A stretch of DNA of 27,704 nucleotides from a virus: positions 1-27,704 of IMG/VR virus record IMGVR_UViG_3300046011_001614. One strand, given 5' to 3'. A model generated the notes under the pieces. It saw only the letters and a program-made list of their open reading frames with translations, was not told where the DNA came from and searched no databases. A program made the translations under genes and the position numbers. Below are positions 10,469-22,359 of the stretch, in pieces (position 1 is the first letter of the stretch; each line of letters begins with the position of its first letter).

Positions 10469-10951
10469 ATGCTTATAAAGATTCTAGCTACTATTCTAAT
10501 CTCATTTTTATCCATGAGTAATATTGTTCATGGTAAATCTAACGGACACAATGTTATCTCTTTTGAACAAAAAGAAATAAATTGTCTTGGTGAAGCAATT
10601 TACAGAGAAGCAAGAGGTGAACCTGTAACGGGTATGGCTTCTGTTGGTCTTGTGGTAATGAATAGAGTGAAATCTGAGAAATTTCCAAACTCAGTTTGTG
10701 AAGTGACTCATCAAAAAACGAATGGTATGTGTCAATTCTCTTATGCTTGTATGAAGAATCTACCAAAAATAAAAGAATCTGAAAAATTCAATTCGTTTTA
10801 CATGGCAAAAATGATTTACCGTAATCAGGTTAAAGACATTACTCGAGGTTCAACCTTCTTTGATATGGGTAGAATGTCTCACAACAAAAAGATGCATATA
10901 TCTAAATCAATTAAAGTTGGTCCACACCAATTTTATAAAGAACGGGTTTAA
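10469..10951 (+). CDS. Exported SleB-type cell-wall hydrolase, candidate endolysin
   Basis: The N-terminus is a Sec signal (MLIKILATILISFLSMSNIVHG) with likely cleavage near residue 22; a signal-arrest-release anchor is an alternative. The domain matches the SleB/Hydrolase_2 family: CLGEAIYREARGEP (39-52) with catalytic Glu42, then GLVVMNRV and FPNSVCEVTHQ, MCQFSYAC. It would cleave peptidoglycan in the periplasm. A signal sequence lets an endolysin be exported without a holin, and none is seen nearby. The upstream hairpins could control timing. Length 160 is normal for the minimal domain. Confidence 0.85.
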   Translation: MLIKILATILISFLSMSNIVHGKSNGHNVISFEQKEINCLGEAIYREARGEPVTGMASVGLVVMNRVKSEKFPNSVCEVTHQKTNGMCQFSYACMKNLPKIKESEKFNSFYMAKMIYRNQVKDITRGSTFFDMGRMSHNKKMHISKSIKVGPHQFYKERV

Positions 10952-12945: not shown

Positions 12946-12971
12946 CAAGTTTTTTGATGTAAAATAAACTG

Positions 12972-13006
12972 ATGGAATAGTTCTTAATTGAACTATTCCA
13001 TTTTTT
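12972..13006 (+). terminator. Intrinsic terminator after gene 32
   Basis: Stem ATGGAATAGTTC 12972-12983 pairs perfectly with GAACTATTCCAT 12990-13001 around a TTAATT loop; T-run 13001-13006. Isolates the gp32 operon from the PEP-CTERM gene. Confidence 0.9.
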
Positions 13007-13026: not shown

Positions 13027-13034
13027 TATAAATA
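13027..13034 (+). promoter_or_regulatory. Late promoter TATAAATA for the PEP-CTERM gene
   Basis: Exact T4 late consensus TATAAATA, 23 nt before ATG 13058. The match to the window's own gp55/gp33 and the constant 22-24-nt spacing at other late sites support it. Confidence 0.85.
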
Positions 13035-13057
13035 TCTACAACAACAGGAGAAATTAA

Positions 13058-13915
13058 ATGAAAAAATTATTACTAGGAATGATGTTAATTGGTTCAATCA
13101 ATTATGCATCAGCTAATACGGTCAATGGGGTTTATTGGAATCCAACAGATGGTTCTGATTTAACTATTGATGGTGGGTTATTTGAAACCATAGCAGGACA
13201 TGTAGGTGACCATATCGTTGGTTATGGTGAAGTGAACAAATTCAACGGAAGATACCAAAATGAATTTTGTCCTGGATGCGAATTAACATATACATTTTCT
13301 TATCAAATGTTATCGTCTAGTTCCAATGCAGTGACATATGATGGTTCTAATACGTATTTCAAAACATTTGAACAAGTATGGAATGGAACATCTATTGATT
13401 ATATTAACAATTCGTTTTTGATAGGTTCTGGTGATAAACGGTCATTTTTCCCCACTATCAATCCATTAGAATATACATTTACGTTTGGTGATGGTATTGT
13501 TGAATTTTTTGCCGATTCAACTCCAGATTTCACTGAAAATGCGCCAACACTTGCTTCGGCTTCTGATGGTATTAGTTTCTTGAAATTAAAAAGTAATGGA
13601 TTATTGAGAGGGACTGGATATGATATTTTTAATCCAGGCGCAATTTACGGATCTGGTTCGGGATTCTTGGATGCAGTTTCCGGTTCAGCGTTTGAATTTT
13701 TCAATACAAATTCAATGAATGGTGCAGATTTACAATTTACGTCATCTTTCCATATCAATAATTCGGCAAGAGAATCTGATTATCTATTGGGAGGAACCGT
13801 TCATGTAACAGGTGATACGGTCGACGTACCAGAACCTTCTTCTATTCTAATTTTCTTGTCTGGAATCTTAGGGGTGTTCTATTTTGTATCCAATACCAGA
13901 AATATGGTAGCTTAA
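13058..13915 (+). CDS. Secreted PEP-CTERM domain protein of phage origin
   Basis: 285 residues. A Sec signal peptide (MKKLLLGMMLIGSINYASA) opens it, with cleavage after ASA. The mature part is Gly/Ser/Asn/Phe-rich with no recognised catalytic motif (one CPGC pair near 72). The C-terminus is a PEP-CTERM sorting signal: VPEPSS (257-262), a hydrophobic helix ILIFLSGILGVFYFVS, and a short tail with one Arg. In bacteria such proteins are recognised by exosortase and delivered to the cell surface. A late promoter lies just upstream and a terminator on each side, so it is a self-contained cassette. Likely role is modification of the infected cell's surface or the virion; both are inference. Host must carry exosortase for sorting. 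Confidence 0.85.
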   Translation: MKKLLLGMMLIGSINYASANTVNGVYWNPTDGSDLTIDGGLFETIAGHVGDHIVGYGEVNKFNGRYQNEFCPGCELTYTFSYQMLSSSSNAVTYDGSNTYFKTFEQVWNGTSIDYINNSFLIGSGDKRSFFPTINPLEYTFTFGDGIVEFFADSTPDFTENAPTLASASDGISFLKLKSNGLLRGTGYDIFNPGAIYGSGSGFLDAVSGSAFEFFNTNSMNGADLQFTSSFHINNSARESDYLLGGTVHVTGDTVDVPEPSSILIFLSGILGVFYFVSNTRNMVA

Positions 13916-13921
13916 ATTATT

Positions 13922-13957
13922 AAATCCAATTTAGATTAAATTCTAAATTGGATTTTT
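13922..13957 (+). terminator. Intrinsic terminator after the PEP-CTERM gene
   Basis: Stem AAATCCAATTTAG 13922-13934 pairs with CTAAATTGGATTT 13943-13955 around an 8-nt loop; T-run 13953-13957. Confidence 0.88.
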
Positions 13958-14458: not shown

Positions 14459-15256
14459 ATGATTGGTGCTGTAATTGGAGACGTAATAGGATCCGTCTAT
14501 GAGTTCGATAATGTAAAGACAAAAGAGTTTGAATTATTTCAAAAGGATTCAATATACACAGATGATTCTGTATTAACATTTGCTATAGCAAAATCTATCT
14601 TGGATGAAGAATCTTATATTGATAATGTAAAGGATTTCGGTAGAAGATATTCGGACGCCGGATATGGTGGTATGTTTAAACAATGGTTGTTCTCCGAAGA
14701 CGTTGAACCATATAACAGTTACGGTAATGGTTCGGCAATGCGAGTGTCATCAGTTGGATTCTTATTTGATACCATAGAAGATGTTTTATATCAAGCTGAA
14801 TTATCCGCTGCGATTACCCATAATCACCAAGAAGGAATCAAAGGTGCTCAAGCAACTGCTCTTTCGATCTTCTTGGCAAGAACGGGTAATTCTAAGGAAC
14901 AAATCAAACATGAAATTGAAACTCGATTTGGATATGATTTAAACAGAACATTGGATGAAATCAGACCAACATATAAATTCAATGAAACATGTCAGAAGAC
15001 TGTCCCTGAATCAATCATATCTTTCCTTGAATCGACAGATTTCGAAGATGCCATTAGAAACGCAATTAGTCTAGGTGGAGACAGCGATACATTAGCTTGT
15101 ATCTGCGGTGGTATAGCGGAAGCATTTTATGGGGAGATTCCTGATTATATCTTATCGGAAACATTGATTAGATTACCGCAAGAATTTATTGATATTTTAA
15201 ATTTATTTGATGATAAAGTGTATAAATACAATAAATCAAATAAGGAATCGCAATGA
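14459..15256 (+). CDS. ADP-ribosylglycohydrolase (DraG/ARH family)
   Basis: 265 residues; hydrolyses ADP-ribose-protein or related N-glycosidic bonds using two Mg ions. Motifs in order: GAVIGDVIGSVYEF (3-16), TDDSVLT (34-40) with metal-binding Asp35/Asp36, NGSAMRVSSVGF near 90-101, THNHQEGIKGAQATA near 120, and GGDSDTLACICGG (206-218) with Asp208/Asp210. The set is complete, so the enzyme should be active. Phage homologues may undo host or defence-associated ADP-ribosylation, or manage NAD metabolites. AAAGGA precedes ATG 14459; the stop overlaps the next ATG (ATGA). An internal late promoter near its 3' end serves the next gene. Confidence 0.93.
   Translation: MIGAVIGDVIGSVYEFDNVKTKEFELFQKDSIYTDDSVLTFAIAKSILDEESYIDNVKDFGRRYSDAGYGGMFKQWLFSEDVEPYNSYGNGSAMRVSSVGFLFDTIEDVLYQAELSAAITHNHQEGIKGAQATALSIFLARTGNSKEQIKHEIETRFGYDLNRTLDEIRPTYKFNETCQKTVPESIISFLESTDFEDAIRNAISLGGDSDTLACICGGIAEAFYGEIPDYILSETLIRLPQEFIDILNLFDDKVYKYNKSNKESQ
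15221..15228 (+). promoter_or_regulatory. Late promoter TATAAATA inside the 3' end of the ARH gene
   Basis: Exact TATAAATA, 24 nt before ATG 15253. Same spacing as at 13027. Being inside a coding region weakens it slightly, but the reading-frame constraint there (VYKYN) is modest. Confidence 0.75.
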
Positions 15257-15534: not shown

Positions 15535-16017
15535 TTAAAATTTAACAATTCCTTCTTCTAAAATATGGAGTTTCAATTCATAAATCATTTTATCAAATAG
15601 TTCACCAGGAGATAATTTGGTTTCATCTAATTTAAAACATTTCGATACAAATTCTGAACATATCTCACCAGAATAATCTTTAACTTTAATTTGTACACCA
15701 AATCGCCTCAACAATGATTTAACACCAACAGCAATGAAATCCATGTATCCATATCTAACTGGAGAAATCATGGGAATAATATTGTCTTTATGTTGATTCC
15801 ATAAAATAGATGTATCAACAATTGTGTATCTTCTGTTTTCGTAATTAGACATAAAATTCATATTTCTATTGGATCCCATTGTTGATTCCAAAATGAATTT
15901 ACCATCATCAGAAATTATCCCAACATGTATATATTCACTACCACTAAACGTTTTTATTATCAAATCCAATAATTTGTAATCCCCGTCTTTGAAGAAAATT
16001 GTTTGACCTGTTTTCAT
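15535..16017 (-). CDS. Permuted NlpC/P60 (YiiX/YebB-like) papain-fold enzyme
   Basis: 160 residues. EYIHVGIISDDG carries the catalytic His (H31) near the N-terminus, and GEICSEFVSKCF the catalytic Cys (C120) near the C-terminus, the permuted order of the YiiX/YebB branch. Members hydrolyse amide bonds in peptidoglycan peptides or acyl bonds in lipids. It is the last gene of the structural operon, downstream of the tape measure, so it may be tail-associated wall degradation at entry. No signal peptide. Start ATG 16015-16017, 3 nt after the tape measure stop. Confidence 0.82.
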   Translation of the reverse strand: MKTGQTIFFKDGDYKLLDLIIKTFSGSEYIHVGIISDDGKFILESTMGSNRNMNFMSNYENRRYTIVDTSILWNQHKDNIIPMISPVRYGYMDFIAVGVKSLLRRFGVQIKVKDYSGEICSEFVSKCFKLDETKLSPGELFDKMIYELKLHILEEGIVKF

Positions 16018-16020
16018 AAT

Positions 16021-19000
16021 CTATCCATTAAAATTAAATCTGTTTTGAAAATAATTCAATACAGTGTTATCATCGTTCTTAACTGTCTTGGAGATAACAG
16101 TCGTTGAATTATTGTTAACATTGGTTGGCGCGTTGACTATATTATTACCATTTGATACATTATTTTTATTGGTATTCTCTAATCTAGCGGTTTCCGTTTT
16201 CGCTGAATTTTCATATAATGCGTTAGAAATATCTCTTATCGGTTTTTCTGGCGTTTTGAAAAGAGCTTGCCCAATAGGTTCAATCTTAGTGACATCTATT
16301 GGTAACTTTGTTTCAATAGACATATTAGATAATGTATCTGTTATGCTTGAATTAACAATTGGTATTATCTTAGAGGGTTCAATACGTTCTCCGTTAATTG
16401 TAACATCTGGTATTATATTATTAAGGAGTTCTTCTGCTTTATTATCAATAGAAGAAGGAATATCCATTATCGGATTAATAATATCATCAATTGGTTTTGT
16501 AACAGATTGAATGTTTTGATTGACGATATTCTTCACTTCATTTATCGGATTACCAATCAACGGGTCTATTTGATTTGCTAATTGAACTACTTCATCTATT
16601 GGATTATCATTTATTGTTACAACAGGTTCAGGAATAGATACTTCATTTGGTGGTAATGGAGTTTCCACCGTAACAGGAACTTGTTGAATCACACCCACCG
16701 GTTTAACAATAGGTTCTTCTGATTTCAAATTTGGAAATTCAGATTCAACAGAAGGTATTGTTGATTCATTTATTGTTACAACAGGTTCAGGAATAGATAC
16801 TTCATTTGGTGGTAATGGAGTTTCTTTAGATTGTTCCTGTTTAATTTGTTCTACTGGTTTAGATTGAACATCATTTAACGGAGCTTTGCTAAGAGATGTT
16901 AAATCGATTTCTGGTTTAGAGAATTCAGGAACAGGTTCTATCTTGTTTTCTATTTTAACAGGTTCAATCTTTGGTATTTCTTTATTTTCAGGTTCTACTG
17001 GTTTTGGTTCTTCCGATTTACCGTTAATGAATTTCGTTGCTTCTTCTTCGACATTCTTTTTGATTTCGGTCATTCGTTCACCAACCAATGGATCTGACAT
17101 TGGTGAAATACCATACACATCTTCATAAACATCATTTGCCAATAATGCGATTGCCGCAGGTACAGCAGTGGCAACTGAACCTAAACCAGATACGGCAGCC
17201 AATCCTGCTCCAGCGATATCTCCTTTTACCAATCTACTGATACCTTCCCCAACACCTAATGCAGCACCAATCAATGGAATAGATTTACCCAACATCCCGC
17301 CCATGGCAGCAGGTAATCTTTTGGCAATAGAGGTTCCAATCAATGCAGAAGCACTTCCTTTCAATTTATTTCCAACACCGCCCAATACTTTACCGCCAAC
17401 AGATTTAACTACTCCACCCATCTTACCAACAACTGTTGATTCCTTTACTCCATTAACAACATTAGACGCTAAATTTCCAATAGAAGAACCAGCAACCATG
17501 GCAGCAGTAGCTCCACCAATCGCCTTTACTCCAGTTGATAATGGTTTGAATTTACCTCCGATTTTGGAGGCAATATCTTTTGTTGATTTTCCAAAGGATT
17601 TAGCTTTGTTCTTTAATTTACCACCTTCTTTCTTAGCGTTACCACCAAACAACCCACCCAATAATGATGTATCGGATTCTTCTTTCTCATTGACCCCAAA
17701 TTTACCCATTTTCAACAATTTGAAAATTTCTGTTTGAACATTCAATTGATTTTGTAATACATCAAATGTTTTGGATTTCTGTAAATTATCTTCAATTTGA
17801 GATTCGGAAACTTCATTCGATATATTAGTTGATTCTTTAGAGGTTTCTTTAATTGAATCAGATAACGATTTGATTTCATCTTGTGTATTGGAAACGACAG
17901 TTGTTATCTTAGAGGACTCTTTAATTGAATCAGATAACGATTTGATTTCATCTTGTGTATTGGAAACGACAGTTGTTATCTTAGAGGTTTCTTTAATTGA
18001 ATCAGATAATGATTTATTTTCATCTTGAACTTTAGATTCAACAGTTGTTATCTTAGAGGACTCTTTAATTGAATCAGATAATGATTTGATTTCATCTTGA
18101 ACTTTAGATTCAACAGTTTCCTTTTTAATTGGAGATTCAACTGGAGTCGATTGAGATGGAATATCTTTAACTGGCTCTTCTTTGACAAATGTTTTATCCG
18201 TATCCTCTATCTGTTTTCTTAGAGAGGAAAGTTCTTCAGATAATGTTTTAAACACTTCATTGGATTCATCCGTTTTTGGTAAATCTTTAAATGTATTAAG
18301 TTTATCAAACAATTCATTGTATGATTGTTTCATATTCAATAACATTTTGGATTCTTTAATTAGATCTTTCTCAACATCAGAACGTTTTTTATCTTTCAAT
18401 AATTCTGGATTTTGTTCTATTGCTTGTTGTGCATATTCTAAATGAGTTTCTTTTACATTTTGTGATTGTAATAATACATCTTTCAAACCAACAATGTCCG
18501 CAAGTTTCTGTATATTTTCATTGGACCCAAACGACAATCCTTTTGTACCAATTTGTTTTATCACAGAAGAGGTTTTGAATTCATTATATCTTGGATCTTC
18601 TTTTACATTATACTTTGGGTTGATTCGTTTAGCTTCTTTAATGTAATCTTTGAACGATTCTCTATTGGATAGATATTTTCCTAATTTTGAATCTTCTTTT
18701 ACACCAATAACATTTGTTGCGAATTTCTTTAATGAAGAAAGATTACCAATTGCTGATTTTTTAAACAATGATGAGATTACATTATCCGATTTATCAACAT
18801 CATATTTACCAGAAGGTTTATTTGTTGGTTGTTCTTTTGGTTTTGATTCTGGTGCGTTATCTTTCAAAACGGGTTTCGATTCAATTCTATCTTTAATCTC
18901 AGATAACAAATCTATCATCTTCATGGAATTGTTGAATTGTTTCTCTTCCGCGAACCTTTCTTCAAATTGAATTTCTTTATCGGATTTACCGCCTGAAAAT

Positions 19001-21106: not shown

Positions 21107-21922
21107 TTAGTAACTCCATACTTGTTTTGCCGTAGCTCCCGTAAATAGCTCGTTTGGTAAGAGTACCGAGACTATCCAATTATCAGAATGAATCTTTTTC
21201 AACGGAGTTCTTAAATGTGAATACAAATATCTATGTACACATTTTTCAAATTTCTTATGATGTGCCATTTTTTGTAATAGATTATATGATAATTTCAATT
21301 TGGTACTAACATCTGTTCTTTTACTTACAGCAATAGATTGTAATTCATCAAGTAAGATTATCCTGTCTTTATAATGGACGTAATGGAAGTTGATGCCGAT
21401 AAATCCATCTGGTAGGATTCTGAACGGAAATACCAACGGAAATTTATCCCAGTAAGGTAAAATGTCTTTATGTTTGGCATCATAATAGAAAGAATACATA
21501 ACACCAATTTCTGGTTTTAATGTGGTAGTGCCTCTTACGGACGCATCATTAGAACTTGCCAATTTTTTAACTTCAGAATTGAACCAAGCCTTTGATTGTT
21601 TTCTTAATTCAGAAATCTCGTATGAACTTGCTCTGGACAATTTATCTTTAATTGTTCTTTGTTGTTCTTTACGTTCTGGTGTTGGTTTCTTTTCAACAGG
21701 TTTGATTGGTTCTTCTTTTGGAAGTTCCTTAGTTGGTTTTAATCTAACTTTGACTTTCTTTGCTGGTATTGATTTTGGTGTTTCTTTGGGTTCTTCTTTT
21801 GGAACCTTTAATCTAACTTTTAATTTTGGAGTAGGAGGAACTTGTTTTGGTTCTTCTTTTGGAGTTTCCTTCGGTGTCTTTAATTTGATTTTTAATTTTG
21901 GTTTTGTTTCTTGTTCGTTCAT
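21107..21922 (-). CDS. Conserved T4-like protein in the gp2 position, Lys/Pro-rich N-terminus (271 aa)
   Basis: The N-terminal ~85 residues carry three rough 25-residue repeats of type (K)PKLK(I/V)(K/R)LK(T/V)PKE(E/T)PK, basic and disordered. The globular part (110-271) has a well conserved feel: GVMYSFYYDAKHKDILPYWDKFPLVFPFR, GFIGINFHYVHYKDRIILLDEL, ending TAKQVWSY, a family I have seen in T4-like cyanophages without assured function. Its strand and place next to gp4 equal that of T4 gene 2 (DNA end protector, 274 aa), so gp2-like is an attractive but unproven name. Stop/start coupling with gp4 (ATGA). Confidence 0.65.
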   Translation of the reverse strand: MNEQETKPKLKIKLKTPKETPKEEPKQVPPTPKLKVRLKVPKEEPKETPKSIPAKKVKVRLKPTKELPKEEPIKPVEKKPTPERKEQQRTIKDKLSRASSYEISELRKQSKAWFNSEVKKLASSNDASVRGTTTLKPEIGVMYSFYYDAKHKDILPYWDKFPLVFPFRILPDGFIGINFHYVHYKDRIILLDELQSIAVSKRTDVSTKLKLSYNLLQKMAHHKKFEKCVHRYLYSHLRTPLKKIHSDNWIVSVLLPNELFTGATAKQVWSY

Positions 21923-22359
21923 TTGATTCCCAATTCATATTCTGTTAAGACAATAAATTCGTATCCTCTAACTTTACACCATTTATCCGCAGCTTCCCAT
22001 TTAGACATATTCACCGCGTACACTTCCGTTTCTCGAATAAACGTCTTTCTTCTTCTACTGTTTGATGGATTTGCTTGAGAATGTGGTTTAATTTCAACAA
22101 GGTAGGTTTTAACACCTTCTTTTGTTTTAATTGTCATTAGATTGTCTGGAAAATATCTATGCATCTTACCGTCTAATGGTGAAATATAGGGTATACAAAA
22201 TGATTCAGACGACCAACTAATTACATTTGGATTTGAATCTACCCATTTACAAAAACGTCGTTCCCAAGAAGACCTTAAAATAATGGTAGACGGATCTCCA
22301 GCGTATTTTTCTGGATGTATTGGATTCCATTTAACTGGTTTAGGATATTTCTTTGCCAT
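21919..22359 (-). CDS. 4: Head completion nuclease-fold protein (T4 gp4)
   Basis: 146 residues. Matches T4 gp4 in WNPIHPEKYAGDPSTIILRSSWERRFCKW, ISWSSESFCIPYISPLDGKMHRYFPD, and YLVEIKPH. The PD...(V)EIK residues (D72, E89, K91) form a PD-(D/E)XK-type site. In T4 gp4 finishes heads before tail joining. First gene of the minus-strand structural operon, right behind a late promoter; AAGGAAG precedes ATG 22357-22359. Confidence 0.92.
   Translation of the reverse strand: MAKKYPKPVKWNPIHPEKYAGDPSTIILRSSWERRFCKWVDSNPNVISWSSESFCIPYISPLDGKMHRYFPDNLMTIKTKEGVKTYLVEIKPHSQANPSNSRRRKTFIRETEVYAVNMSKWEAADKWCKVRGYEFIVLTEYELGIK

Follow-up and report, generated by a model that had tools for sequence, protein, structure and literature searches.

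Results and Discussion

The 27,704-nucleotide stretch of viral DNA analysed here (the window) carries a gene whose 285-residue product, on the basis of whole-length homology, belongs to a bacterial family of PEP-CTERM proteins marked by the motif FCPGCELT. The gene stands behind an exact late-type promoter element in the genome of a large, T4-like phage, in an island absent from the inspected relatives, and its product ends in a tail with a single basic residue. Whether the protein would reach the cell surface through an exosortase of the host is a question on which we consider the evidence evenly balanced. The features of the locus are as follows.

12971-13002, plus strand: intrinsic terminator that follows gp32 and isolates the cassette on its upstream side (listed by the terminator scanner; -17.8 kcal/mol)
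13027-13034, plus strand: T4-type late promoter element TATAAATA, exact, 24-31 nt before the ATG
13046-13050, plus strand: ribosome-binding site AGGAG (read from the sequence)
13058-13915, plus strand: ORF for a phage-borne protein of 285 aa in the FCPGCELT PEP-CTERM family
13058-13114, plus strand: residues 1-19, a predicted Sec signal peptide (judged by eye and from alignment with homologue N-termini)
13265-13288, plus strand: family motif FCPGCELT, residues 70-77 (sequence and alignment)
13328-13468, plus strand: insertion within the body, specific to the phage protein and covering about residues 91-137 (alignment; model confidence is low there)
13826-13837, plus strand: VPEP motif, residues 257-260 (profile match and alignment)
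13838-13912, plus strand: hydrophobic helix at the C-terminus, then the short tail SNTRNMVA, in which a single residue is basic (AlphaFold model and K/R count)
13922-13955, plus strand: probable terminator, an A+T-rich stem-loop with a T-rich stretch after it (-16.1 kcal/mol; absent from the scanner's list)

Assignment to the FCPGCELT family

The original prediction, of a PEP-CTERM protein in a phage, is supported by whole-length homology to a bacterial PEP-CTERM family together with the phage-borne record. Its description of the two ends of the protein also holds: the N-terminus (MKKLLLGMMLIGSINYASA, then N) is Sec-like as judged by eye and typical in alignment with the homologues, and VPEPSS begins at residue 257, with the AlphaFold model placing the hydrophobic helix at residues 261-284, so that the PEP motif followed by a transmembrane helix expected of PEP-CTERM sorting-domain proteins is present. 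Profile searches, proposed at the outset as a check, divided: NCBIfam TIGR02595 was matched at the borderline (16.0 bits for a cut-off of 16, E 0.017; 20.4 bits in a genome-frame search), and the score against Pfam PF07589 (15.9 bits) fell below the gathering score of 20.7. The PEP-CTERM profile score by itself is weak evidence, and chance is excluded because the homology to bacterial PEP-CTERM proteins extends over the whole length, the HMM alone being insufficient.

A degenerate pattern, FCPGCELT[FY], run against 84,980 species genomes, matched 27 stretches, all of them from Proteobacteria by record title; the family occurs in Gamma- and Betaproteobacteria. By blastp the phage protein matched each of the 31 bacterial ORFs from these stretches (weakest E 2e-5, the E-values applying to a set of 32 sequences), with the best homologue, 36.7% identical over 240 aa (E 4e-45), in Gammaproteobacteria bacterium F7, the genome that was also best in a whole-genome search with the phage protein (E 2.9e-25). 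Three of the ORFs (L109, L111 and L118) are cut by the end of the locus; the remaining 28 are complete, and all 28 end in a PEP-CTERM-like tail. In an alignment (A2) of 28 rows, comprising the phage protein and 27 homologues with some fragments and near copies omitted, identities to the phage protein are 25-39%, and the phage protein keeps 18/18 columns that are invariant among the homologues and 29/32 that are at least 90% conserved. Since most homologues were fetched by way of FCPGCELT, the conservation of that motif among them is partly circular, and columns outside it were counted separately: here the phage protein keeps all 11 invariant columns, 8 of which precede the PEP tail, and 21 of the 24 that are at least 90% conserved. 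A quick tree groups it with the homologues of G1419, F7 and G421 at 87% SH-aLRT, on a long end branch (1.71) and without resolution inside the group. Patterns and profile found this family in no further virus of IMG/VR, phage isolates held no match to the 285-aa protein, and a genome-wide scan with its peptides, leaving out FCPGCELT, found no relative.

Predicted structure

AlphaFold, supplied with the 28 rows, gave a model of the 285-aa protein with pLDDT 78.9 and pTM 0.72, in which strands run through the body and the insertion is poor. Foldseek returned no match to this model at E<=1e-3, and a search by sequence for a solved relative found none (best E 0.47). In VIA-align the top match was the DUF3224 protein 2q03_B (Z 10.0, rmsd 2.8, 117 aligned), with cyclase and Diels-Alderase barrels at Z 8-9.6 and outer-membrane barrels at about 8.4. 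We take from these matches that the body is predicted to be a small beta-barrel, and nothing more specific.

Genomic location

The window is 99.99% identical to positions 106904-134604 of a 234,735-bp virus record (G001) with a 127-bp terminal repeat. Its genes include gp32 (phrog_224), a gp47-like gene (phrog_100), gp46, a gp55-like late sigma factor (phrog_234), a helicase loader, the tape measure (phrog_167) and the baseplate hub (phrog_150). Because the PEP gene lies in a terminally repeated record of this length among gp32, gp46/47, late sigma and tail genes, it is phage-borne and not contamination. Its carrier is a large T4-like phage. The whole record contains one PEP-CTERM match.

Elsewhere in this genome, a cell wall hydrolase gene (PF07486; window 10469-10951), with a signal-like N-terminus, lies upstream of gp32 and has a 45% identical homologue in L016, a locus of a gp32 relative, and self matches reveal a tandem repeat of about 72 bp within the tape-measure gene (window 17827-18118). 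The large terminase (G001 74002-75981, minus strand; L007:14002-15981) falls into two pieces in tblastn and has, by eye, an intein-like insert, CVTGETIV...YYSNGVISHNC, in its ATPase part.

For relatives of the phage, 80 loci carrying gp32 relatives were fetched and nine inspected. In eight of these nine, gp32 runs straight into a large convergent ORF with no PEP island between; this ORF occupies the place of the tape measure, although only that of L028 is matched by the window's gene in blastp, and in seven of the eight it precedes a gene homologous to the baseplate hub gene of the window, the locus L025 ending before that point. The ninth, L016, has other genes at the gp32 junction. A pattern search found no PEP tail near gp32 in any of the 80 loci, and whole records for 50 of the 80 loci, many of them fragments, gave no PEP-CTERM match at E<=0.05 in a search that does match in G001. 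The PEP gene is absent at the same place in the relatives inspected, as a phage moron should be. Its island also holds a 92-aa protein, an ADP-ribosylglycohydrolase (PF03747, phrog_6572; window 14459-15256) and, at 15535-16017 on the minus strand, a weak match to the C92 permuted papain-like amidases, under Pfam's cut-off; the last of these, at the end of the minus-strand tail genes, also matches phrog_1128, of the moron class.

Late-type promoter and terminators

As anticipated, the gene has its own exact promoter element. The genome has 11 copies of TATAAATA, against 28-36 predicted by Markov models (36 being the second-order value), and four of the 11, the PEP gene's included, stand 20-50 nt before a start on the same strand (binomial p 7e-5, for an interval picked after the sites had been seen and with gene calls taken as the longest ORF). 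The related count for NATAAATA is 39 in the genome, of which 16 fall in windows 10-70 nt before starts against 1.7 expected; it precedes 21919-22359, the gene that opens the minus-strand series of tail genes in the window, baseplate hub and tape measure among them. Judged by these positions, the TATAAATA before the PEP gene fits the late promoters of the phage. The claim of a stand-alone late cassette is supported in the sense of a late-type gene in a variable spot, the former from the positions of TATAAATA and NATAAATA and the latter from the gp32 relatives. The further claim, that the cassette sits between two intrinsic terminators, stands for the upstream side; the downstream stem is a probable terminator, absent from the scanner's list because it is too A+T-rich.

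These data bear on the notion that the gene is a functionless passenger, recently acquired, which we regard as highly improbable. That this is the only phage with the FCPGCELT family found in IMG/VR would suit such an origin, as would a whole GC somewhat above the phage mean (0.350 vs 0.321, with 19 of 158 phage genes higher). Its GC3, however, is phage-like (0.238 vs a mean of 0.249), the ORF is intact and keeps the invariant columns on a long branch, and the late promoter is of phage type.

Abnormal C-terminal tail

The tail after the helix had been said to contain one Arg, fewer than usual, and the comparison confirms this: the last 12 residues hold one K/R in the phage protein against 3-5 in 28 of 28 complete homologues, which were not selected by their tails and so provide a fair comparison. 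The basic cluster that follows the helix in PEP-CTERM sorting-domain proteins is lacking. Weaker comparisons, the sets having been chosen by tails, give 3-5 K/R for 21 PEP-CTERM tails from five genomes (30 loci fetched, 21 yielding a tail by rule, some from the same family) and at least three for each of 20 phage-borne PEP-CTERM tails; L203, from a second IMG/VR pattern, has two.

Loss of the cluster is the main point against a plain reading of the protein as an exosortase substrate. Either the host exosortase does without it, or the protein is retained for a longer time or has ceased to be processed. Also to be counted against surface delivery are the PF07589 score below its threshold and the TIGR02595 score barely at it, the divergence and insertion, and a whole GC on the high side. 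Were exosortase recognition to have gone with the cluster, the protein would be a plain inner-membrane anchor whose periplasmic barrel acts in place, for example against the entry of a second phage's DNA. We think this possible, if rather unlikely: the single basic residue, where every complete homologue has at least three, the weak HMM scores and the long branch speak for it, but a pure anchor needs no P-E-P, and both P-E-P and helix have been kept despite divergence to 25-39% identity. It is quite improbable that the protein is a decoy or titrant, that is, a poorly processed substrate that would occupy the exosortase late, loosen the matrix and help progeny to leave aggregates. A late-type promoter and a substrate-like motif with an abnormal tail are what such a decoy would have, but it needs only the tail, and the body has been conserved too: of the 11/11 invariant columns kept beyond the motif, 8 precede the PEP tail.

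Exosortase and the host

An exosortase (PF09721) scored above cut-off in 26 of 26 family-bearing genomes found by the motif (26 of the 27 motif loci were used, the 27th lying on a contig already included) and in all ten further family-bearing genomes, which were found by protein search, giving 36/36 in total. The best homologue, in F7, lies about 14 kb from the exosortase gene xrtA, among genes that we read as EPS genes. The G421 homologue adjoins two TPR proteins, a sensor kinase and a response regulator, which we take to be PrsT-, PrsK- and PrsR-like (a PrsT/PrsK/PrsR neighbourhood), and the exosortase of G421 is on another contig. Because exosortase is present in all the family-bearing genomes searched and the F7 and G421 homologues have these neighbourhoods, the phage gene is assigned by family to the proteins of exosortase systems. 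In the 234,735-bp phage record itself the exosortase model, which matches in the family-bearing bacterial genomes, found no match.

Assignment of a host through phage marker genes was attempted and abandoned, as their nearest relatives, by the tool's ranking, disagree and no host was found: gp46 is nearest to Methylophilales phage Melnitz (43.6%), gp32 and terminase to Pelagibacter phage HTVC008M (47.2% and 43.9%) and gp23 to Synechococcus phage S-WAM1 (61.0%). Searches at E<=1e-10 detected the PEP family in 8 of 301 genomes from the order holding G421 and the Methylobacter genome G077 (10/301 at 1e-6), in 2 of 369 genomes of a class sample, and in 1/399 and 1/293 genomes of two further samples (2 at 1e-8 in the second), the centre genomes being counted in every tally. 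There is no more than a hint here of a methanotroph-like host.

Relationship to PepA

All rows of the 28-row alignment except the phage protein match the PepA model NF033554 at E<=0.01. Four homologues scanned singly score 42-60 bits (best 59.6), below the curated cut-off of 80, and the phage protein itself gave no match to the model, so we do not file it as PepA. That the homologue matches might be purely an effect of the tail was considered and overturned: a first set of tail-less sequences (the phage protein, four homologues and three other phage-borne proteins) gave 0/8, and 4/10 tail-less bodies in a second set match NF033554, making 4 of 14 homologue bodies (0/4 and 4/10) at 28-35 bits, one of the four being L118, a fragment without a tail. 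The FCPGCELT family is probably a remote relative of PepA, as far as profile matches tell. The G421 homologue adjoins a gene that we read as PrsT-like, as pepA is placed with prsT in Aquincola.

The relevant passages of PMC9850573 place pepA upstream of prsT in Aquincola and report that PepA overexpression there raised bound and lowered soluble exopolysaccharide. By analogy, the phage protein might act as a matrix glue that retains exopolysaccharide and holds cells together, an effect that could protect the infected cell or leave new hosts close to the burst; we judge it unlikely that the surface protein holds exopolysaccharide on the cell in this way, and the proposal, a special case of surface delivery, shares part of the probability given to that. 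The overexpression result, the remote PepA relationship of the homologue bodies and the EPS-type genes near homologues speak for it, and the second tail-less set raised our estimate slightly, but the phage protein has no NF033554 match and no singly scanned homologue reaches 80 bits.

Other phage-borne PEP-CTERM proteins

It had been suggested that phage-borne PEP-CTERM proteins are undescribed, which proved too strong: at least 23 other IMG/VR contigs carry them, and PMC11003980, in the part concerned, reports viral genes acquired from cells in the family TIGR03118, described with a putative exosortase interaction domain. A search for homologues in other phages accordingly gave PEP-CTERM proteins in general, on these 23 further contigs, and none of the same family in IMG/VR or phage isolates. 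The contigs were matched by the pattern PEPxxLALLGLGL, and 23/23 pass TIGR02595; as IMG/VR contigs may include host DNA, the count is a guide. Twenty of the proteins were extracted (L133, L140 and L149 were missed by the regular expression) and form 8 blastp clusters, all of them separate from the 285-aa protein of the window. Phage isolates held no match to two of these other proteins. A second pattern gave nine stretches, with a PEP tail in L201, L203, L204, L205 (two genes) and L206; L204 has a portal gene on the contig, and the two genes of L205 (4857-6549) are adjacent, in a contig region of 24% GC.

Several of these genes lie among head and packaging genes. In L141 the PEP-CTERM gene (1150-1899) is directly behind that for the major head protein, with portal and terminase before; in L133 (1910-2545) it lies between terminase and portal, in the packaging module, and in L149 (5508-6143) in the packaging module with a head maturation protease; in L155 it just precedes the terminase, and in L140 it is near terminase and portal. 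L136 has a portal gene on the contig and L135 phage replication initiation, and L138 has head morphogenesis, with the PEP gene at the extreme contig end, where it may belong to flanking host DNA. By PHROGs matches of chosen genes, contigs with a hallmark gene occur in 4 of the 8 clusters; the single gene tested on each of L139 and L147 gave no match, L142 and L143 gave weak or non-structural matches and L146 families of unknown function, and L134 was left out of this check. We tentatively suggest, at rather less than even confidence, that tailed phages of exosortase-bearing bacteria have repeatedly acquired substrates, several expressed with head and packaging genes, so that the host enzyme decorates the infected cell late. 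On this view such genes were acquired separately several times, perhaps nine or more, and the gene of the T4-like phage would be one instance.

Proposed mechanism and comparison with known systems

On the reading that we prefer, the PEP gene would be a moron, a surface-protein gene taken from an exosortase-bearing proteobacterium and now driven by a late promoter of the phage, at the variable point where gp32 meets the convergent tail operon. Its transcription, late in infection, would fall to the phage sigma factor; host Sec would export the product, which the PEP-CTERM-like tail would retain in the inner membrane until the exosortase of the host, the phage having none, delivered it to the exopolysaccharide layer or the outer surface. 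At that site the predicted small beta-barrel body might alter the matrix or a surface receptor. That it keeps other phages or progeny off the dying cell is a doubtful proposition.

Work on exosortase sorting has so far treated it as a concern of the host, in the formation of biofilms and flocs. Should phages use it, infected cells would gain new surfaces, the phage genes would be natural tests of substrate function, and the behaviour of phages in flocs and biofilms would become easier to approach. Where PMC12642866, PMC8399692, PMC9239080 and PMC4886054 speak of PEP-CTERM genes, the passages concern host genes; in the open-access papers searched, we found no such route described for any phage, the passage in PMC11003980 apart. 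The TIGR03118 viral genes of that paper, in the part concerned, resemble the phage protein in their exosortase-related tail but are of another family, with neither anatomy nor mechanism given there.

PEP-CTERM/exosortase substrates (TIGR02595, PF07589; the FCPGCELT family) share with the phage protein the whole body, PEP motif and C-terminal helix, and a signal peptide that in the phage protein is predicted. Unlike its bacterial counterparts in the FCPGCELT family, the phage protein is phage-encoded, has a late-type promoter and an insertion of about 45 residues, and is without the basic cluster. Flocculation-associated PepA (NF033554) bears the same kind of sorting signal, and its model weakly matches some tail-less homologue bodies; the phage protein differs in giving no such match, and the four singly scanned homologues stay below 80 bits. 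The surface-modifying morons of phages include lipoproteins and inner-membrane exclusion proteins, and we know of none that uses a host exosortase for delivery, as the PEP protein would. Like the PEP gene, such morons are single-gene cassettes with their own promoter that are absent in relatives.
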